Below are positions 5,430 through 14,131 of a stretch of 64,000 nucleotides of DNA, in pieces. The position numbers and the translations under genes are program-made. The DNA lies in IMG/VR virus record IMGVR_UViG_3300035703_000076, positions 1 through 64,000 of that record. The stretch is one strand, 5' to 3'. The notes under the pieces were generated by a model that ran no database searches, was not told where the DNA came from, and saw only the letters and a program-made list of their open reading frames with translations. This DNA is from a virus. Every line of letters begins with the position of its first letter. The stretch's first letter is position 1.

Positions 5430-5516
5430 TCATTGGTTCAATCCTTCAAAAATTAATTCTTCGCCGGTCAAGGCGTGGTAAAGATTTCCAATCCTGAGTT
5501 CGTGTGCTTTTATCAT
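5430..5516 (-). pseudogene. Fragment of a KELRIGN-type phage protein
   Basis: A 28-codon ORF reading MIKAHELRIGNLYHALTGEE...LNQ. Its start resembles the N-terminus of a common small phage family (M..KELRIGN...) whose members are usually near 100 aa, so this looks truncated. It may alternatively be a genuine micro-protein. Confidence 0.35.
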
Positions 5517-5521
5517 TGGTT

Positions 5522-5560
5522 ATGTGGATAGTTAATGTGGATAGTTAATGTGGATAGTTA
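5522..5560. repeat. Three 13-bp direct repeats carrying DnaA-box-like sites
   Basis: ATGTGGATAGTTA is repeated three times exactly, starting at 5522, 5535 and 5548. Each contains TGTGGATAG, whose reverse complement CTATCCACA matches the DnaA box TTATCCACA at 8 of 9 positions. Regular phasing suggests cooperative binding of an initiator such as host DnaA. Function inferred. Confidence 0.5.
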
Positions 5561-5580
5561 TGTTTGCTTAATTTTGTTGG

Positions 5581-5620
5581 ATATGTGCAAGTTTATGGCA
5601 CATGTCTGGTAGTTATAGGA
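5581..5620 (-). other. attC-like site D (end of 57-aa cassette)
   Basis: Read on the minus strand, the stop of the 57-aa ORF is followed by TCCTATAAC (5612-5620, R''-like), then a hairpin with arms ACATGTGC/GCACATAT (5581-5605). TCCTATAAC is complementary to the GTTATAGGA at the start of the same cassette (plus strand TCCTATAAC ending at 5824), as expected for a cassette that circularises through attC. No clear next core site follows, so the site may be degenerate. Confidence 0.4.
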
Positions 5621-5622
5621 AA

Positions 5623-5796
5623 TTAAAAAATTGAAGTGAGCCTTTTCCAAAATGACTTCCATCTAAATTTAATTATCCTGTCACAAATCATACACCTATC
5701 AGTTGTGTAGTGTTCGGTATTTGTGTAAATAATGTTTCTAAAATCACCACAATCGTGTTTAGCGTGGGTGTATGCTTTGTCTTGTTCTTTATTCAT
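5623..5796 (-). CDS. 57-aa zinc-knuckle-like protein in cassette-like unit
   Basis: Starts MNKEQDKAYTHAKHDCGDF and has TDRCMICDR (CxxC) with nearby His and Cys residues, a possible single zinc site; it ends in a basic, aromatic tail (WKSFWKRL). No family assigned. It is the only ORF between attC-like sites C and D and is bracketed by inverted GTTATAGGA sequences, so it fits the form of one integron gene cassette. Confidence 0.6.
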   Translation of the reverse strand: MNKEQDKAYTHAKHDCGDFRNIIYTNTEHYTTDRCMICDRIIKFRWKSFWKRLTSIF

Positions 5797-5816
5797 CGTA
5801 TCAATTTTTTAACTAT

Positions 5817-5917
5817 CCTATAACAGCACCTAACAAAAATGGCTGCATAAGCATTGGTTTTCAATTCAGAAGTTCTTACAAGCAGCCACTTCTGTTAGCC
5901 GCAAAACGTTATGTGCC
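5817..5917 (-). other. attC-like site C
   Basis: On the minus strand: R'' GGCACATAAC (5908-5917), a G/T-rich spacer, arm CGGCTAACAGAAGTGGCTGC (5882-5901), a loop, arm GCAGCCATTTTTGTTAGG (5829-5846), then R' GTTATAGG (5817-5824). The inner arms pair over two blocks (TGGCTGC/GCAGCCA and CTAACA/TGTTAG) split by a small internal loop, like the bulged stem of integron attC sites. About 101 nt, within the known attC size range. It follows the lipoprotein ORF and precedes the 57-aa ORF. Confidence 0.55.
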
Positions 5918-5920
5918 ATT

Positions 5921-6202
5921 TTAAGGCGACACGTAATAAGGGTTTGAAGCAATCTTTATGTAGCTTTTAGCATACAAATTGAATCTACTTCCATCAACCC
6001 AATAAACAGCATGTTGCGTGCTTAACATATTTACAGAATCGCATTCTATTTGTGCAGACGTAGTCCAGTTATCATCATCTGTTTTTGCTATTATGTAAGC
6101 ACGTTTTGGTTTTGGTTCTAACTCACACGAAGAAAAAACGGCACATAACAACAAACTTGCAAAAGCAAGGGTTAATCGGTTAATTGAAAATTTGTAATTC
6201 AT
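5921..6202 (-). CDS. Small putative lipoprotein in cassette-like unit
   Basis: 93 aa. The N-terminus MNYKFSINRLTLAFASLLLC is a basic then hydrophobic signal peptide followed by AVFSSC (Cys26), a plausible lipobox for signal peptidase II. The mature part (about 67 aa, beginning CELEPKPKRAY) is unrecognised and would be anchored to a membrane. A secreted lipoprotein is unusual in a phage early region. It lies alone between attC-like sites B and C, and integron cassettes often carry such proteins. Inferred cargo gene, function unknown. Confidence 0.65.
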   Translation of the reverse strand: MNYKFSINRLTLAFASLLLCAVFSSCELEPKPKRAYIIAKTDDDNWTTSAQIECDSVNMLSTQHAVYWVDGSRFNLYAKSYIKIASNPYYVSP

Positions 6203-6241
6203 ATTACATTTGTTTTAAGTTGAAATTTTGTGCTTCTAAAT

Positions 6242-6275
6242 ACTTGCCTTCGCAAGTTTGCAAAACGTTAGTGGC
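6242..6275 (-). other. attC-like site B (short, possibly degenerate)
   Basis: On the minus strand: R'' GCCACTAAC (6267-6275), a spacer, then a short hairpin ACTTGC gaag GCAAGT (6242-6257). GCCACTAAC is exactly complementary to the GTTAGTGGC that opens the same 71-aa cassette at 6526-6534. The matching R' before the lipoprotein gene is not recognisable, so this site is incomplete. Confidence 0.45.
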
Positions 6276-6279
6276 AAGT

Positions 6280-6495
6280 TTAAAAACCGCACTTGACACA
6301 TTTTATATCCTTTTTATCCATTGAAGTGAATCCAATTGGTAATTCTGGAACATCGCATATACATTTAGATTCTTCGTTGAATATTTTATAATCATTACAA
6401 ATTTTCTGCAATTCGTCTTTCTCTATAAGAAAATCACCTGTAAATTGGTCAATTCTTAGTTCATATTTTTGGATTAATTTATCTATTAGTTTCAT
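6280..6495 (-). CDS. 71-aa protein with C-terminal zinc ribbon, in cassette-like unit
   Basis: An acidic helical N-terminus (MKLIDKLIQKYELRID...) precedes a cysteine-rich end: CICD at about residues 45-48 and CVKCGF at the C-terminus, a probable CxC...CxxC zinc site. No family recognised. It is the only ORF between attC-like sites A and B, and matching GTTAGTGGC sequences in inverted orientation mark both ends of the unit. Confidence 0.6.
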   Translation of the reverse strand: MKLIDKLIQKYELRIDQFTGDFLIEKDELQKICNDYKIFNEESKCICDVPELPIGFTSMDKKDIKCVKCGF

Positions 6496-6525
6496 ATTTT
6501 AATTTATAAATGTTAATAAAAACCA

Positions 6526-6659
6526 GCCACTAACACTCGCTATAAGTAATGGCGGGTTCAGTGGTAATTGTTGTGTTGTGCTTTCTATTGTCATTTGTTG
6601 TATTTTGATAGTGAGTAGTTCCAATACCGCCACTACTCATAGCGGAAACGTTATAGGGC
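6526..6659 (-). other. attC-like site A
   Basis: On the minus strand: R'' GCCCTATAAC (6650-6659), a GTTTC spacer, arm CCGCTATGAGTAGTGGCGG (6627-6645), a 71-nt loop, arm CCGCCATTACTTATAGCG (6538-6555), then R' GTTAGTGGC (6526-6534). The arms pair as CGCTAT/ATAGCG, AGTA/TACT and TGGCGG/CCGCCA with single-base mismatches between blocks. Length about 134 nt, near the upper end of known attC sites. It separates the 69-aa ORF from the 71-aa ORF. Confidence 0.6.
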
Positions 6660-6688
6660 ATTTAAACTGTTTGGCACATAATCTTAAA

Positions 6689-7278: not shown

Positions 7279-7611
7279 TTAAAGATTTATTATTTCTCCT
7301 GATTCTGTTTTGTAATTAAACTTAAATCCATCGTTTACGAAGTTTCGCACAAGCGATGGGCTTGAAAAAACCTTGCCATTTTTTATGCAATTTGAAATAT
7401 CTTCAATGGTTGCTCGCCCAAACTCGTAACTGTTTCCATGTAAGGTGAAAGTATCGCTTTCTCGGTCAAGCGACCACCAACCGCCACCTTTTACGTTATT
7501 TTTGTTCGTAACAAGTTGTTTGTGATAGGTGCATTTCGCCAATATCAAACAATCCCCATGTTCTTCGTCAGTTTCGATAATAAATTTTGTAAAAACGTCC
7601 ATTTTCTTCAA
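7279..7611 (-). CDS. Hypothetical 110-aa early protein
   Basis: Contains HKQLVTNKNNVKGGGWWSLD and a C-terminal helical segment. No family assigned. It may start at 7611 (MKKMDVF) or 7602 (MDVF); 7611 leaves a 3-nt gap to the preceding gene. Confidence 0.6.
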   Translation of the reverse strand: MKKMDVFTKFIIETDEEHGDCLILAKCTYHKQLVTNKNNVKGGGWWSLDRESDTFTLHGNSYEFGRATIEDISNCIKNGKVFSSPSLVRNFVNDGFKFNYKTESGEIINL

Positions 7612-7614
7612 TTT

Positions 7615-7863
7615 TTATTTGTGGTTATTTTTTGCAATTTGATTCAATACTTCAACGTGTTCGGCTGTCAATTCAAACTCATCCCAAGCCCCGTACCTGC
7701 ATTTGTAGCCGAAAAGGTACTTTAGGGCGTACTTTAATCGGTGAAAAAACGGCCTCGGTGCTAAGTGGATTTGAAGGTAAGTTGTGTTGTCGTCCTCGTC
7801 ATGGTTGACAATGATTTGATGCTCGGTTGAGTAACAATTGCAGATTAAGATTTGTGGGTGCAT
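7615..7863 (-). CDS. Hypothetical 82-aa early protein
   Basis: MHPQILICNCYSTEHQIIV..., rich in His and aromatic residues, with a possible beta-hairpin N-terminus. Function unknown. Three nt after the YqaJ gene. Confidence 0.6.
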   Translation of the reverse strand: MHPQILICNCYSTEHQIIVNHDEDDNTTYLQIHLAPRPFFHRLKYALKYLFGYKCRYGAWDEFELTAEHVEVLNQIAKNNHK

Positions 7864-7866
7864 GGT

Positions 7867-8784
7867 TTACTTCTCCTTCAATGGTTTAAACAAAAACTTC
7901 CTTGGTGTGGTCGAAGGAACTGAACATTCCTCAACGATTTCGGGGTAGGTTTCCTTCAATTTCTTGCTGTCTAATTTCGTTGTTTCTTCCCCTCCCTTCC
8001 AAGTGAACAATGGCTTTCCTTCTTTGCTTAAAATAACCTCATTTTCAAGCATCTTCATCTTGATAGTTTCCTCAATCGTTTCCTTCTCGCTTTCAAGCCT
8101 TGTCAATTCTTTTCGTACATTCCCAAGGGCTTTGTGTAGTTCAACGATTCCATCATCCGCAACAATTGACTTGGCGTTGCTTTTCGGAAACATTTCAAGC
8201 ACGTCCTCTGCGTTTTTCGGTTCGGGTGCAACATCAGTCAAAACGTGGTTGTGCCAAAAGTTCCTTGCCGATTCAAGTTGTTCCTCAAACAAATCTTCTT
8301 GGAACGTCCATTGCATACTTCCGATTGAACTACCACTTTTAAGGTAGAAAATGATTCCTGTTTTTAGGCCGCAAATGCCCAACTCCCAATTGATTTGCTC
8401 AATCCAATAAACGGGAATGTCATCAACCGATTCAATTCTTTGCTGGGTGTTTTTGAGGGAAATAATTACTTCCTCGTAATCCAATCGGGCAAAGGCATCA
8501 GGAACGGCAACAATACCGATTTCCTTGGTGAACATTTCCTTGTTAAGCCTTTCATGGGTTAATCGAACAACCCCGCCTTCTTGGTTGATTTTTTCAACCC
8601 CCATTTGAAGGATAAATGGTTCAATTTTGATTCCAATAAGTTGCTTTTCGGAAAGTTCACCTTTTGTGGCTTTGCCCGTTTTTTGTTGCCAGATTTGGAA
8701 GGGGGTAACGTAATCGTTAAACCCCCTGATTGCGGCAATGTCGGAACCTCCAATGCCGTGTGCTTTGATGTTTGATTTTTCCAT
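7867..8784 (-). CDS. YqaJ-like viral recombinase exonuclease
   Basis: 305 aa with YqaJ/lambda-exonuclease family marks: GGSD at residues 12-15, Glu55 in GIKIEPF, PDA at 95-97 and QINWELGICGLKTG at 130-142. The C-terminal ~90 residues hold a coiled coil (RKELTRLESEKETIEE). This enzyme resects double-stranded ends for single-strand annealing; the SSB-like and NinB genes lie immediately upstream in the same operon. The usual E-x-K metal motif reads S109-L110-K111, so the family Glu is replaced by Ser and activity may be altered. Confidence 0.85.
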   Translation of the reverse strand: MEKSNIKAHGIGGSDIAAIRGFNDYVTPFQIWQQKTGKATKGELSEKQLIGIKIEPFILQMGVEKINQEGGVVRLTHERLNKEMFTKEIGIVAVPDAFARLDYEEVIISLKNTQQRIESVDDIPVYWIEQINWELGICGLKTGIIFYLKSGSSIGSMQWTFQEDLFEEQLESARNFWHNHVLTDVAPEPKNAEDVLEMFPKSNAKSIVADDGIVELHKALGNVRKELTRLESEKETIEETIKMKMLENEVILSKEGKPLFTWKGGEETTKLDSKKLKETYPEIVEECSVPSTTPRKFLFKPLKEK

Positions 8785-8786
8785 GA

Positions 8787-9425
8787 TTAGAAAGGTAAAG
8801 AAGTGTCTTCGTCCTCAGCCGCTGGATATTGGTTGTTTGAAATGTGAGTTTCGGCAGGGCTTGTTAGTTTTGCGTACTGCTCCGAAGATTTGATTTTGTC
8901 CTTGATAAAGTCTGGCAAAGATTCAAATTTGGCTTTGTCAAAGTTGTCAAGTTCAAAAACAAAGGTTGGATTAACTTGTGGTGGACACTCCATACCTTTA
9001 ATCATTGGTGAAACAGAAGCGATTTCGTTGTAAACAACAGAAGGGTCTTTTGCTCCTGGTTTCTCAATGATGTTAAGCATACAAGCAACTCCAAGAAGCT
9101 TTGTGATGTCGAACGATTTTGCTTCCGCCTCGGTGAAATCTTTGCCCCTCCAAGAAGCAAGCATCTTGCGAAGTGTTGCTTTCTCATTCATTGACAAAGT
9201 GTATTCCTTGGAAATCACACAAGGCTGTTCACCTTTGTCCTCGTTAAACACTTTCTTTTCGGTTGGAAGTTCCCATCCGATTCTCACTTTGTGAAGAAGT
9301 TTTTCTTCGCCTTGGAAGCTTTCTTTGATTGTTCCAAGTTCAATCATTTGGTAACACCTTGCAAGGTAGTTGCCTGATGGGATTAATTCTCTTTTAACCC
9401 CTTTGTTGGTTGCGTTGATAGCCAT
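8787..9425 (-). CDS. SSB-like / DUF669-type single-strand-binding protein
   Basis: 212 aa. The strand-rich core (SGNYLARCYQMIELGTIKE, KVRIGWELPTE, ISKEYTLSMNEKATLRKML) resembles DUF669-type proteins that accompany phage recombination nucleases. It ends in the acidic tail AAEDEDTSLPF, very like the -DDDIPF tip of bacterial SSB that docks partner proteins. A role coating ssDNA for the neighbouring nuclease is inferred. It abuts the YqaJ gene with a 2-nt gap. Confidence 0.75.
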   Translation of the reverse strand: MAINATNKGVKRELIPSGNYLARCYQMIELGTIKESFQGEEKLLHKVRIGWELPTEKKVFNEDKGEQPCVISKEYTLSMNEKATLRKMLASWRGKDFTEAEAKSFDITKLLGVACMLNIIEKPGAKDPSVVYNEIASVSPMIKGMECPPQVNPTFVFELDNFDKAKFESLPDFIKDKIKSSEQYAKLTSPAETHISNNQYPAAEDEDTSLPF

Positions 9426-9437
9426 TGTTTATTTGAT

Positions 9438-9866
9438 TTAAAAATTAAAGTTTACTTGTTCGTTTGGGTCGGGAATATACACGTTCAATTCCTCCGCCGC
9501 AAATTGTTTGATGTCTGCAAGATACTCCATAAACTGCGAAGTTGTTAGGTTTGAGGTGTGTCCTGTAATAGTTTTCACCTCCCCTGTTGTTTCATTTATC
9601 AAATCTTCTTTGACAAAGGTTTGCTTCATTAGTTCGTGTACTTGCCCGGTTGTTAATTTGTACCCAATTTGATAAAAACCATCTTTGAGGATTGGGTAAA
9701 CTACTCCCCACAGATAGGCGTTTTGTTCGTTGCTTCGTTTTTTACGTTTTCTTTCGATTGTAAGAACTATTTCCTTCCCTTCAAAGGATTTTATCGCTTC
9801 GGTAATTGGCTGTCTATTAGACGAAATTAGGCCGTTAATTACTTTGGTCGGGAAGGATAGTTTCAT
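9438..9866 (-). CDS. NinB-like recombination protein
   Basis: 142 aa. The segment RSNEQNAYLWGVVYPILKDG with later KQTFVKED, ITGHTSNLTTSQFMEYL and AAEELNVYIPDP follows the NinB (lambda Orf) pattern. NinB binds ssDNA and helps load annealing or recombinase proteins. It sits with the nuclease and SSB-like genes, forming a lambda Red-like module with no separate annealing protein recognised. Confidence 0.8.
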   Translation of the reverse strand: MKLSFPTKVINGLISSNRQPITEAIKSFEGKEIVLTIERKRKKRSNEQNAYLWGVVYPILKDGFYQIGYKLTTGQVHELMKQTFVKEDLINETTGEVKTITGHTSNLTTSQFMEYLADIKQFAAEELNVYIPDPNEQVNFNF

Positions 9867-10078
9867 TACGCAATTACGTTTTGATTGAAAACAACATGAC
9901 TCCTGTCAAGTTCTGGATTGCCTCGCTCGTTTACTAAACAGGCTTCAAGTTCAAGTTTAATATCTTCAAGGTTTACAGGTTCAACTTTTCGGATATAAAA
10001 TGTTTCTTTGTCGCCTTGGTTCGCAAGGTCGTAAAATATCTCTACTTGAAATGTTGCTAATGTTTTTAGGCTTTCCAT
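9866..10078 (-). CDS. Hypothetical 70-aa early protein
   Basis: Begins MESLKTLATFQVEIFYDLA; its stop overlaps the NinB start by one nt, so it is co-translated. No family recognised. Confidence 0.6.
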   Translation of the reverse strand: MESLKTLATFQVEIFYDLANQGDKETFYIRKVEPVNLEDIKLELEACLVNERGNPELDRSHVVFNQNVIA

Positions 10079-10083
10079 ATTAT

Positions 10084-10476
10084 TTAGTTCTCGTCAAAGA
10101 AATCTGATAATGATGGTTTCGAGTACCAATTTGAAATAAATCCATTTTCTCCAATATGCAAATCGATATAATCGCCATATTTTCCTGGAATTAATTCATT
10201 TGGAACATAGTCATTTTCAATAGAAGATATGGTATTTCCTTCTGAATCTAAAAGGAAATATGAACCTTCGTCACAAACCTTCATGCTTAAATGACCTTTT
10301 TGACCTTTTGGCCAATCCAAAACTCGCCCTTCGTCAATATTAATAATAGCAGACCACGTATTTCCACTTCTTAATGGGAAATCATTTGGTATATCCTCTT
10401 CTCCATATCTTACAGCTACGTCAACTTTGACCATTACAATTTCAACCTCTTTTTCCGCTTTAATTATTGCTTTCAT
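10084..10476 (-). CDS. Hypothetical 130-aa early protein
   Basis: Strand-rich protein (MKAIIKAEKEVEIVMVKVDVAVRYGEEDIP...) with WSAIINIDEGRVLDWP in the centre and an acidic C-terminus SLSDFFDEN. The pattern recalls small beta proteins common in Bacteroidota phage early operons. Function unknown. Confidence 0.65.
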   Translation of the reverse strand: MKAIIKAEKEVEIVMVKVDVAVRYGEEDIPNDFPLRSGNTWSAIINIDEGRVLDWPKGQKGHLSMKVCDEGSYFLLDSEGNTISSIENDYVPNELIPGKYGDYIDLHIGENGFISNWYSKPSLSDFFDEN

Positions 10477-13438: not shown

Positions 13439-14131
13439 TTAAAGTAAATTTTCTTGTTTGTAATAGTTTATTAGATACCACACATTTTGAGGTGTAAACT
13501 CCTTCCCATCGGTTGTTATGTAGCCGCTTCGTTTGTAGCCTAAGCGATTAAGGTTGTAGCTAATTTCCTTTAGAAGATAGTCGGGGTTGGCGGCAATATA
13601 CATTTTGATGTACTCGTATATCTGAACTTTGTTGTTATCCTCCCATACGGCTCTTTTCCTTGCTATTCCTCCATTAACTGCGGCTTCATAGCTTAGGTTT
13701 TCAGGTTTTCCAAGTTTCACTCCATTGGATTTCTTTACTTGCAATGCAGCCTTTGTTCGTTTGCTTATCAGTTCCCTTTCGTGCTGTGCCATCGTTGCGA
13801 AGATGCCAAGGGTTAGGGTGTTGAGGTCGGGCAAATCTAAACAAACAAAGTTAACTGATTCCTTCAAAGTAAACAAAAAAGATACATTTCTACTTAGTCT
13901 GTCTAACTTAGCTATGAGCAAAGTTGCTTCTTTTTGTTTACATTCCTTTATAGCTTGTTCAAGTTGAGGTCGCTTGTCCTTCTTACCCGATTCAACTTCT
14001 GTAAACTCCTGCAATATACGGCCATTATTTTTGGCGTATAAGTTAACAGCTTGCTTTTGTGCTTCCAAACCTAAGCCTGATTCGCCTTGTCGCTTTGTTG
14101 ATACTCGGTAGTATGCAATGTAGGTTTTCAT
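13439..14131 (-). CDS. Serine recombinase / resolvase
   Basis: 230 aa. The catalytic domain of the resolvase/invertase family is clear: YYRVST with nucleophile Ser11, LIAKLDRLSRN at about 71-81, and FATMAQHERELISKRTKAAL. The C-terminal ~80 residues contain a helical DNA-binding region (LLKEISYNLNRLGYKRSGYI). Too small for a large serine integrase, so it is more likely a resolvase (multimer resolution) or invertase. No res site or invertible segment was identified. With the RepL-like gene it supports plasmid-style maintenance. Confidence 0.88.
   Translation of the reverse strand: MKTYIAYYRVSTKRQGESGLGLEAQKQAVNLYAKNNGRILQEFTEVESGKKDKRPQLEQAIKECKQKEATLLIAKLDRLSRNVSFLFTLKESVNFVCLDLPDLNTLTLGIFATMAQHERELISKRTKAALQVKKSNGVKLGKPENLSYEAAVNGGIARKRAVWEDNNKVQIYEYIKMYIAANPDYLLKEISYNLNRLGYKRSGYITTDGKEFTPQNVWYLINYYKQENLL

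Follow-up and report, generated by a model that had tools for sequence, protein, structure and literature searches.

Do the hairpins and small open reading frames packed on one strand near the start of this viral DNA form an array of mobile gene cassettes, and if so, which kind of system do they belong to? The window, the 64-kb stretch analyzed here, represents most of a 68,946-bp IMG/VR record (L004), and a first-pass annotation had described four attC-like hairpins in it, alternating with single small ORFs. Judged from sequence and by analogy with known integrons, the block at 5561-6688 is very probably an integrase-less array of three mobile cassettes from a Bacteroidota-specific integron-like system, with a trans-acting recombinase presumably responsible for excision and insertion. 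The parts of the block are given below, with matches to two Infernal covariance models, R1 and R2, which are our own rather than those of IntegronFinder.

5561..6688 (1128 bp), minus strand: array-1 block as a whole, missing in one piece from the relative L006
6526..6659, minus strand: attC-like site A, R'' GCCCTATAAC to R' GTTAGTGGC; R1/R2 matches at 6531-6653
6594-6499, minus strand: 31-aa leader ORF in site A, stopping just 5' of the 71-aa ORF
6280..6495, minus strand: cassette 1 gene, 71 aa, with C-terminal cysteine pairs
6267..6275, minus strand: R'' GCCACTAAC, complementary to the cassette 1 R' GTTAGTGGC
~6140..6275, minus strand: attC-like site B; R1/R2 matches at 6146-6270
6149-6140, minus strand: site B R' GTTATGTGCC, within the 5'-terminal portion of the 93-aa lipoprotein ORF
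5921..6202, minus strand: cassette 2 gene, 93-aa lipoprotein, with start codon and signal peptide inside site B
5908..5917, minus strand: R'' GGCACATAAC, complementary to the cassette 2 R' GTTATGTGCC
5816..5917, minus strand: attC-like site C, with R' GTTATAGGA at 5824-5816; R1/R2 matches at 5821-5911
5854-5813, minus strand: 13-aa leader ORF in site C, ending shortly before the start of the 57-aa gene
5623..5796, minus strand: cassette 3 gene, 57 aa
5612..5620, minus strand: R'' TCCTATAAC, complementary to the cassette 3 R' GTTATAGGA
5576..5611, minus strand: element D, attI-like end site TACCAGACATGTGCCATAAACTTGCACATATCCAAC, with near copies in L005 and where array 2 ends, and the same placement as chromosomal attI-like sites

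Read along the minus strand from 6660 to 5570, the order is site A, the 71-aa ORF, site B, the 93-aa ORF, site C, the 57-aa ORF, an R'' box, and D. All three units begin and end with boxes that are complementary over 9-10 bp (GTTAGTGGC/GCCACTAAC, GTTATGTGCC/GGCACATAAC, and GTTATAGGA/TCCTATAAC), and these are the only GTTA/TAAC 9-10-mer pairs spaced 90-700 bp apart on the window's minus strand. For the 1.25-kb segment, 0.019 such pairs were expected from 3000 Markov simulations (maximum 2), compared with the three observed. The complementarity itself had been recognized earlier, although in just two units; site B, then placed at 6242-6275, is larger than first reported, with its arm CAAACTTGC pairing with GCAAGTTTG in the lipoprotein ORF that also holds its core, and so all three units carry cassette-type complementarity. 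Element D, originally taken for another attC-like hairpin, is preceded by an R'' but has neither an attC stem nor an R', and the sequence that follows (TACCAGACATGTGC...GCACATA) is the end site of the array. We found no PHROG and no significant Pfam match for the 71-aa protein, no family match for the 57-aa protein, no relatives of the lipoprotein ORF in viral contigs, and no Rfam match at gathering thresholds. Tandem TAACTATCCACAT repeats (5510-5560) adjoin the block; they are similar to the start of D (TAACTACCAGACAT) and also border the empty site in L006. On the other side, about 29 bases (TTTAAGATTATGTGCCAAACAGTTTAAAT, 6660-6688) between a phage gene and the first R'' are part of the inserted block and match no unit, and ATGTGCCAAAC within them resembles part of D.

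The hairpins form a family with directly observed covariation: 42 aligned sites give a single consensus hairpin in which both partners vary at 18 of 24 pairs, and their covariation score of 0.584 compares with 0.144 for shuffled and at most 0.146 for slid alignments. R2, trained exclusively on stems from Flavobacterium phages (Muminvirus group) with the window's phage left out, matched three places in the 64-kb window and no others, namely A (E 1.6e-7), B (9.4e-9), and C (1.9e-6), and R1 likewise matched only A-C. The covariance-model check on the minus strand that the first-pass annotation had suggested therefore recovers all three sites, and together with the sequence and the R'/R'' search it confirms a real cassette-like array with hairpins A and C and three small minus-strand ORFs. 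By these models, A, B, C, and two sites of a second array stand in a row and alternate with single ORFs, as integron sites do. The boxes are complementary in all three window units and both array-2 units, and the complementarity extends over 10 bp for 35 of the 50 unit pairs; the canonical attC core (GTTRRRY / RYYYAAC) is a different matter, fitting a single one of 50 R' cores. In the 42-site alignment, 10 sites have an extra base at column 22 of A1, no base is bulged in all sites, and a mismatch at columns 15/134 and G.U at 25/125 are frequent. We dropped the idea that these hairpins never have bulged bases, as a crude arm alignment placed internal gaps in 40 of 67 stems. Site A shares 118 of 128 bases with a site in an unrelated phage contig, L017, which carries another gene there. 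Polaribacter phage P12002L (L053), remarked on for its divergent attC directions (Qi et al. 2023, PMC9892861), had been a candidate for an experimentally tested family member; its sites are not clear members by R1 or R2, which lend the candidate no support.

Comparison with relatives shows where the units begin and end. A further array, with two units, occupies record positions 66361-67100 of the same phage, outside the window, and ends in a near copy of D. At this locus the related phage L005 has different cassettes in front of the same D, and L010 has still other cassettes and a different end site. Array 1 is absent from L006, where GAGTAA abuts TAACTATCCACAT directly, indicating that the 1128-bp block is cleanly missing; L008 also lacks it, with a junction that differs from that of L006. 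Two features of D count against the preferred reading of an integrase-less cassette array: it is missing in L006 along with the rest of array 1, and the T that other end sites have at +8 is absent from both D and its copy. Element D may be an insertion target or may have come along with the block. Separately, apparently coding minus-strand tandem repeats at record positions 68600-68946 run past the record end.

Baltic Flavobacterium phages (Muminvirus, Lillamyvirus, and Hattifnattvirus) carry approximately 7-15 units each, many of them encoding DNA methyltransferases, and 46 of their GenBank records have in common an end flank in which TAAC is followed by TACAATATTACATG. Among the mumin, filifjonk, and tooticki phages, the exchanged unit consists of hairpin, ORF, and R'', with edges between TAAC and G and between TAAC and T, and in phages the hairpin thus precedes its own ORF. 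This reverses the arrangement first proposed, with attC sites behind the ORFs; that classical order is ruled out for phages by the exchange data and holds for chromosomes. Precise gain or loss of a single cassette was observed in the Muminvirus group, where a single 506-bp unit, lying between AGCGGTTAAC and GTTATCAGG, sets mumin6-1 apart from mumin6-4, and one methyltransferase unit was found in two contexts with TAAC at both edges. The comparison of related phages proposed at the outset hence shows units gained and lost independently, and conserved untranslated structures free of unit-wise change were not seen. One cassette shared by mumin6-1 (L015) and mumin6-4 (L035) has two versions of R', GTTATAGGCT and GTTAACCGCT, one per isolate, which differ by a swap of 4 bases within the box amid identical surroundings. 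Members of the family also form an array in the 642-kb huge phage LR756502.1 (L003), where the repeated end flank is a different one, TAACTACTTTGTATGTATGCAAATAC.

Gene orientation separates phages from chromosomes. For a shared relative orientation of attC and attI, 46 of 47 phage units have a cassette gene that points toward the attI-like site, compared with 6 of 92 chromosomal units, the other 86 pointing away from it; an independent set of pattern-defined units from viral contigs gave 91 of 93 toward. At A-type sites, the longest ORF begins inside the hairpin in 28 of 31 cases. We found no precedent in searchable papers for so strict a split in cassette orientation.

These data bear on ordinary phage mosaicism, by which exonuclease and annealing proteins would recombine similar hairpins that serve as mRNA leaders or terminators. 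The likeness of the hairpins in sequence, the start codons often found inside them, and the YqaJ-type nuclease encoded by the phage are all compatible with such homologous recombination, and it could account for part of the shuffling. As the general explanation it is improbable, because unit edges fall at the same base despite differing sequence on both sides, the R'/R'' complementarity within units would serve no purpose, and the same sites adjoin a recombinase in chromosomes, where the genes run the opposite way and the hairpin is consequently no leader.

The chromosomal occurrences link the sites to an enzyme. R1 sites were present in 73 of 148 sampled Bacteroidota genomes, as opposed to 1 of 101 genomes from the phylum of a Lachnospiraceae genome and 0 of 100 from the phylum of a Legionellaceae MAG (strict filters, with no genome known to match, in both sets). 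The recombinase was detected in 52 of the 148 (E 1e-40), in many genomes about 1-10 kb from an array, and its co-occurrence with the sites is strong (table 46/27/6/69, Fisher p 5e-13), with 27 genomes having sites but no recombinase at that threshold and 6 the reverse, which count against our reading. At five chromosomal loci, the recombinase has an attI-like site 70-106 bp from its 3' end, in the interval separating it from the last R'', and in the viral contigs L245, L164, L279, and L275 the recombinase comes directly after an attI-like site, codirectional with the cassettes. Position and sequence identify the attI-like sites in viral contigs as well as those at the chromosomal loci; D likewise sits at the array end, with no integrase adjoining. 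Such arrays are not rare in phages, as had been supposed: two exact attC patterns pull out 99 and 47 IMG/VR stretches, and 8 of these 146 viral loci hold a recombinase match with 33-45% identity. One record initially treated as chromosomal, JAIBBA010000023.1, was rejected as such since it carries genes for a DNA polymerase and for NrdA/NrdB that point to a phage. Another phage contig, within a Chitinophagales MAG (L126, G004:C166), has a long NrdA-like ORF with an apparent intein-like insert at 7580-10141.

PF00589 and TIGR02249 had no match in phage records, and in the window's own phage they detected no tyrosine recombinase across the whole 68.9-kb record, which bears out the earlier statement that no integron integrase lies in the window and also counts against the proposed reading. 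The sole site-specific recombinase noticed in this phage is, by sequence, a resolvase-like serine recombinase of 230 aa at 13439-14131. The array-linked enzyme, of which L041 is an example, is a tyrosine recombinase related to IntI and about 377 aa long; alignments show its catalytic residues R, K, H, R, H, and Y to be conserved. It scores 223 bits with TIGR02249, under the 265 cut-off, and with NF040815 the recombinases reach 169-219 bits versus a cut-off of 220. The IntI-specific insertion is missing: IntI residues ~183-242 correspond to only about 18 residues in the Bacteroidota enzyme. Chromosomal copies have an extra ~90 aa at the N-terminus that is absent from the aligned viral copies. 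The nearest solved structures by sequence are an archaeal Xer and IntI4 (2a3v), and the best fold match to an only moderately confident AlphaFold model (pTM 0.49) of the L041-type enzyme is again IntI4 of Vibrio cholerae.

A canonical IntI-type CALIN, acquired from a bacterial integron and calling for no special system, is for these reasons very unlikely. It would agree with the array layout, the complementarity, and the phage CALINs known from the literature, and the first-pass label "CALIN-like" stands insofar as this is an integrase-less cassette array with attC-like sites; against the canonical form are the near-complete mismatch to the GTTRRRY core, a linked recombinase that falls under the TIGR02249 cut-off and has no insertion, and phage genes inverted relative to attC. 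The core and the insertion together make the system a variant rather than a member of the canonical integron class. That an IS200/IS605-type single-strand transposon or a non-autonomous relative moves these hairpin-flanked genes is scarcely credible, for despite the hairpins and the single-strand asymmetry, the linked enzyme is a tyrosine recombinase with a full R-K-H-R-H-Y set, and there is one hairpin per gene in head-to-tail units with complementary boxes.

If 5561-6688 is the integrase-less array we propose, each cassette would comprise one small gene and one attC-like hairpin and would be cut out as a circle joined through its own R'/R'' boxes. The hairpin would fold as a single strand, and insertion would proceed through tyrosine-recombinase strand exchange between TAA and C (between G and TT on the other strand), into another hairpin or the putative attI-like site D, with the catalytic steps modelled on the integron mechanism. 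The recombinase would act in trans, supplied by the host chromosome or another phage, and the circles would pass among Bacteroidota phages. Once inserted, a phage cassette would join a phage transcription unit with its gene running toward the attI-like site and, as the start codon often lies within the hairpin, would bring its own translation start. The benefit may be a varied supply of small accessory genes, for example anti-restriction methyltransferases.

The system shares the architecture of chromosomal integrons and, by analogy, would work like one. Both have a recombinase beside attI with an array of single-gene cassettes, as in the Treponema layout where the integrase is transcribed toward attI (PMC3607928), as well as imperfect-palindrome attC sites and complementary boxes within the cassette; in Bacteroidota chromosomes, too, genes run away from attI and the integrase 3' end faces it. 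In contrast to integrons, whose core is GTTRRRY, the Bacteroidota sites have boxes of 9-10 bp and a core made up of GTTA and six variable bases, no extrahelical base is common to all of them, and the integrase has no IntI-specific insertion and, in chromosomal copies, carries the N-terminal extension. Phage CALINs (Qi et al. 2023, PMC9892861) are similar as integrase-less attC arrays of virulent phages with methyltransferase cassettes, whereas the Bacteroidota-phage arrays are longer, common, and carry almost every gene in inverted orientation with respect to attC. Archaeal XerA-like and XerC/D recombinases (NF040815, 4a8e, 5hxy) are close, compact, and likewise devoid of the insertion, yet the Bacteroidota enzyme is linked to cassette arrays rather than dif sites and is N-terminally extended in chromosomes; IntI4, the best fold match, has a longer 183-242 stretch.

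Bacteroidota and their phages probably share an integron class of their own, featuring distinct attC and attI sites, an integrase that lacks the IntI insertion, and a separate phage cassette pool with genes inverted relative to attC and start codons often inside the site; some phages would carry the whole integron. The findings point to a distinct integron system, for the most part unnoticed so far, that Bacteroidota have in common with viruses. In the open-licence literature, Bacteroidota integrons are very rare and phage CALINs occasional, and integrons of Bacteroidetes are close to absent from the IntegronFinder 2.0 results (PMC9024848), with In0 elements alone known before and a single complete integron, in Salinibacter, added later. 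In that literature we found no earlier description of such a system in Bacteroidota, and prior art elsewhere is possible. Set against these near-zero reports, half of the sampled Bacteroidota genomes carry the family's attC-like sites. An integrase without the IntI insertion also makes a textbook question testable, namely by what means such an enzyme reads a folded attC. In array-bearing Baltic Flavobacterium phages, missing a particular methyltransferase accompanies reduced plating on a second host (PMC7077304). If active, this would be a major gene-exchange system, apparently missed by current tools, and a direct path for phages to trade small genes, including DNA methyltransferases.
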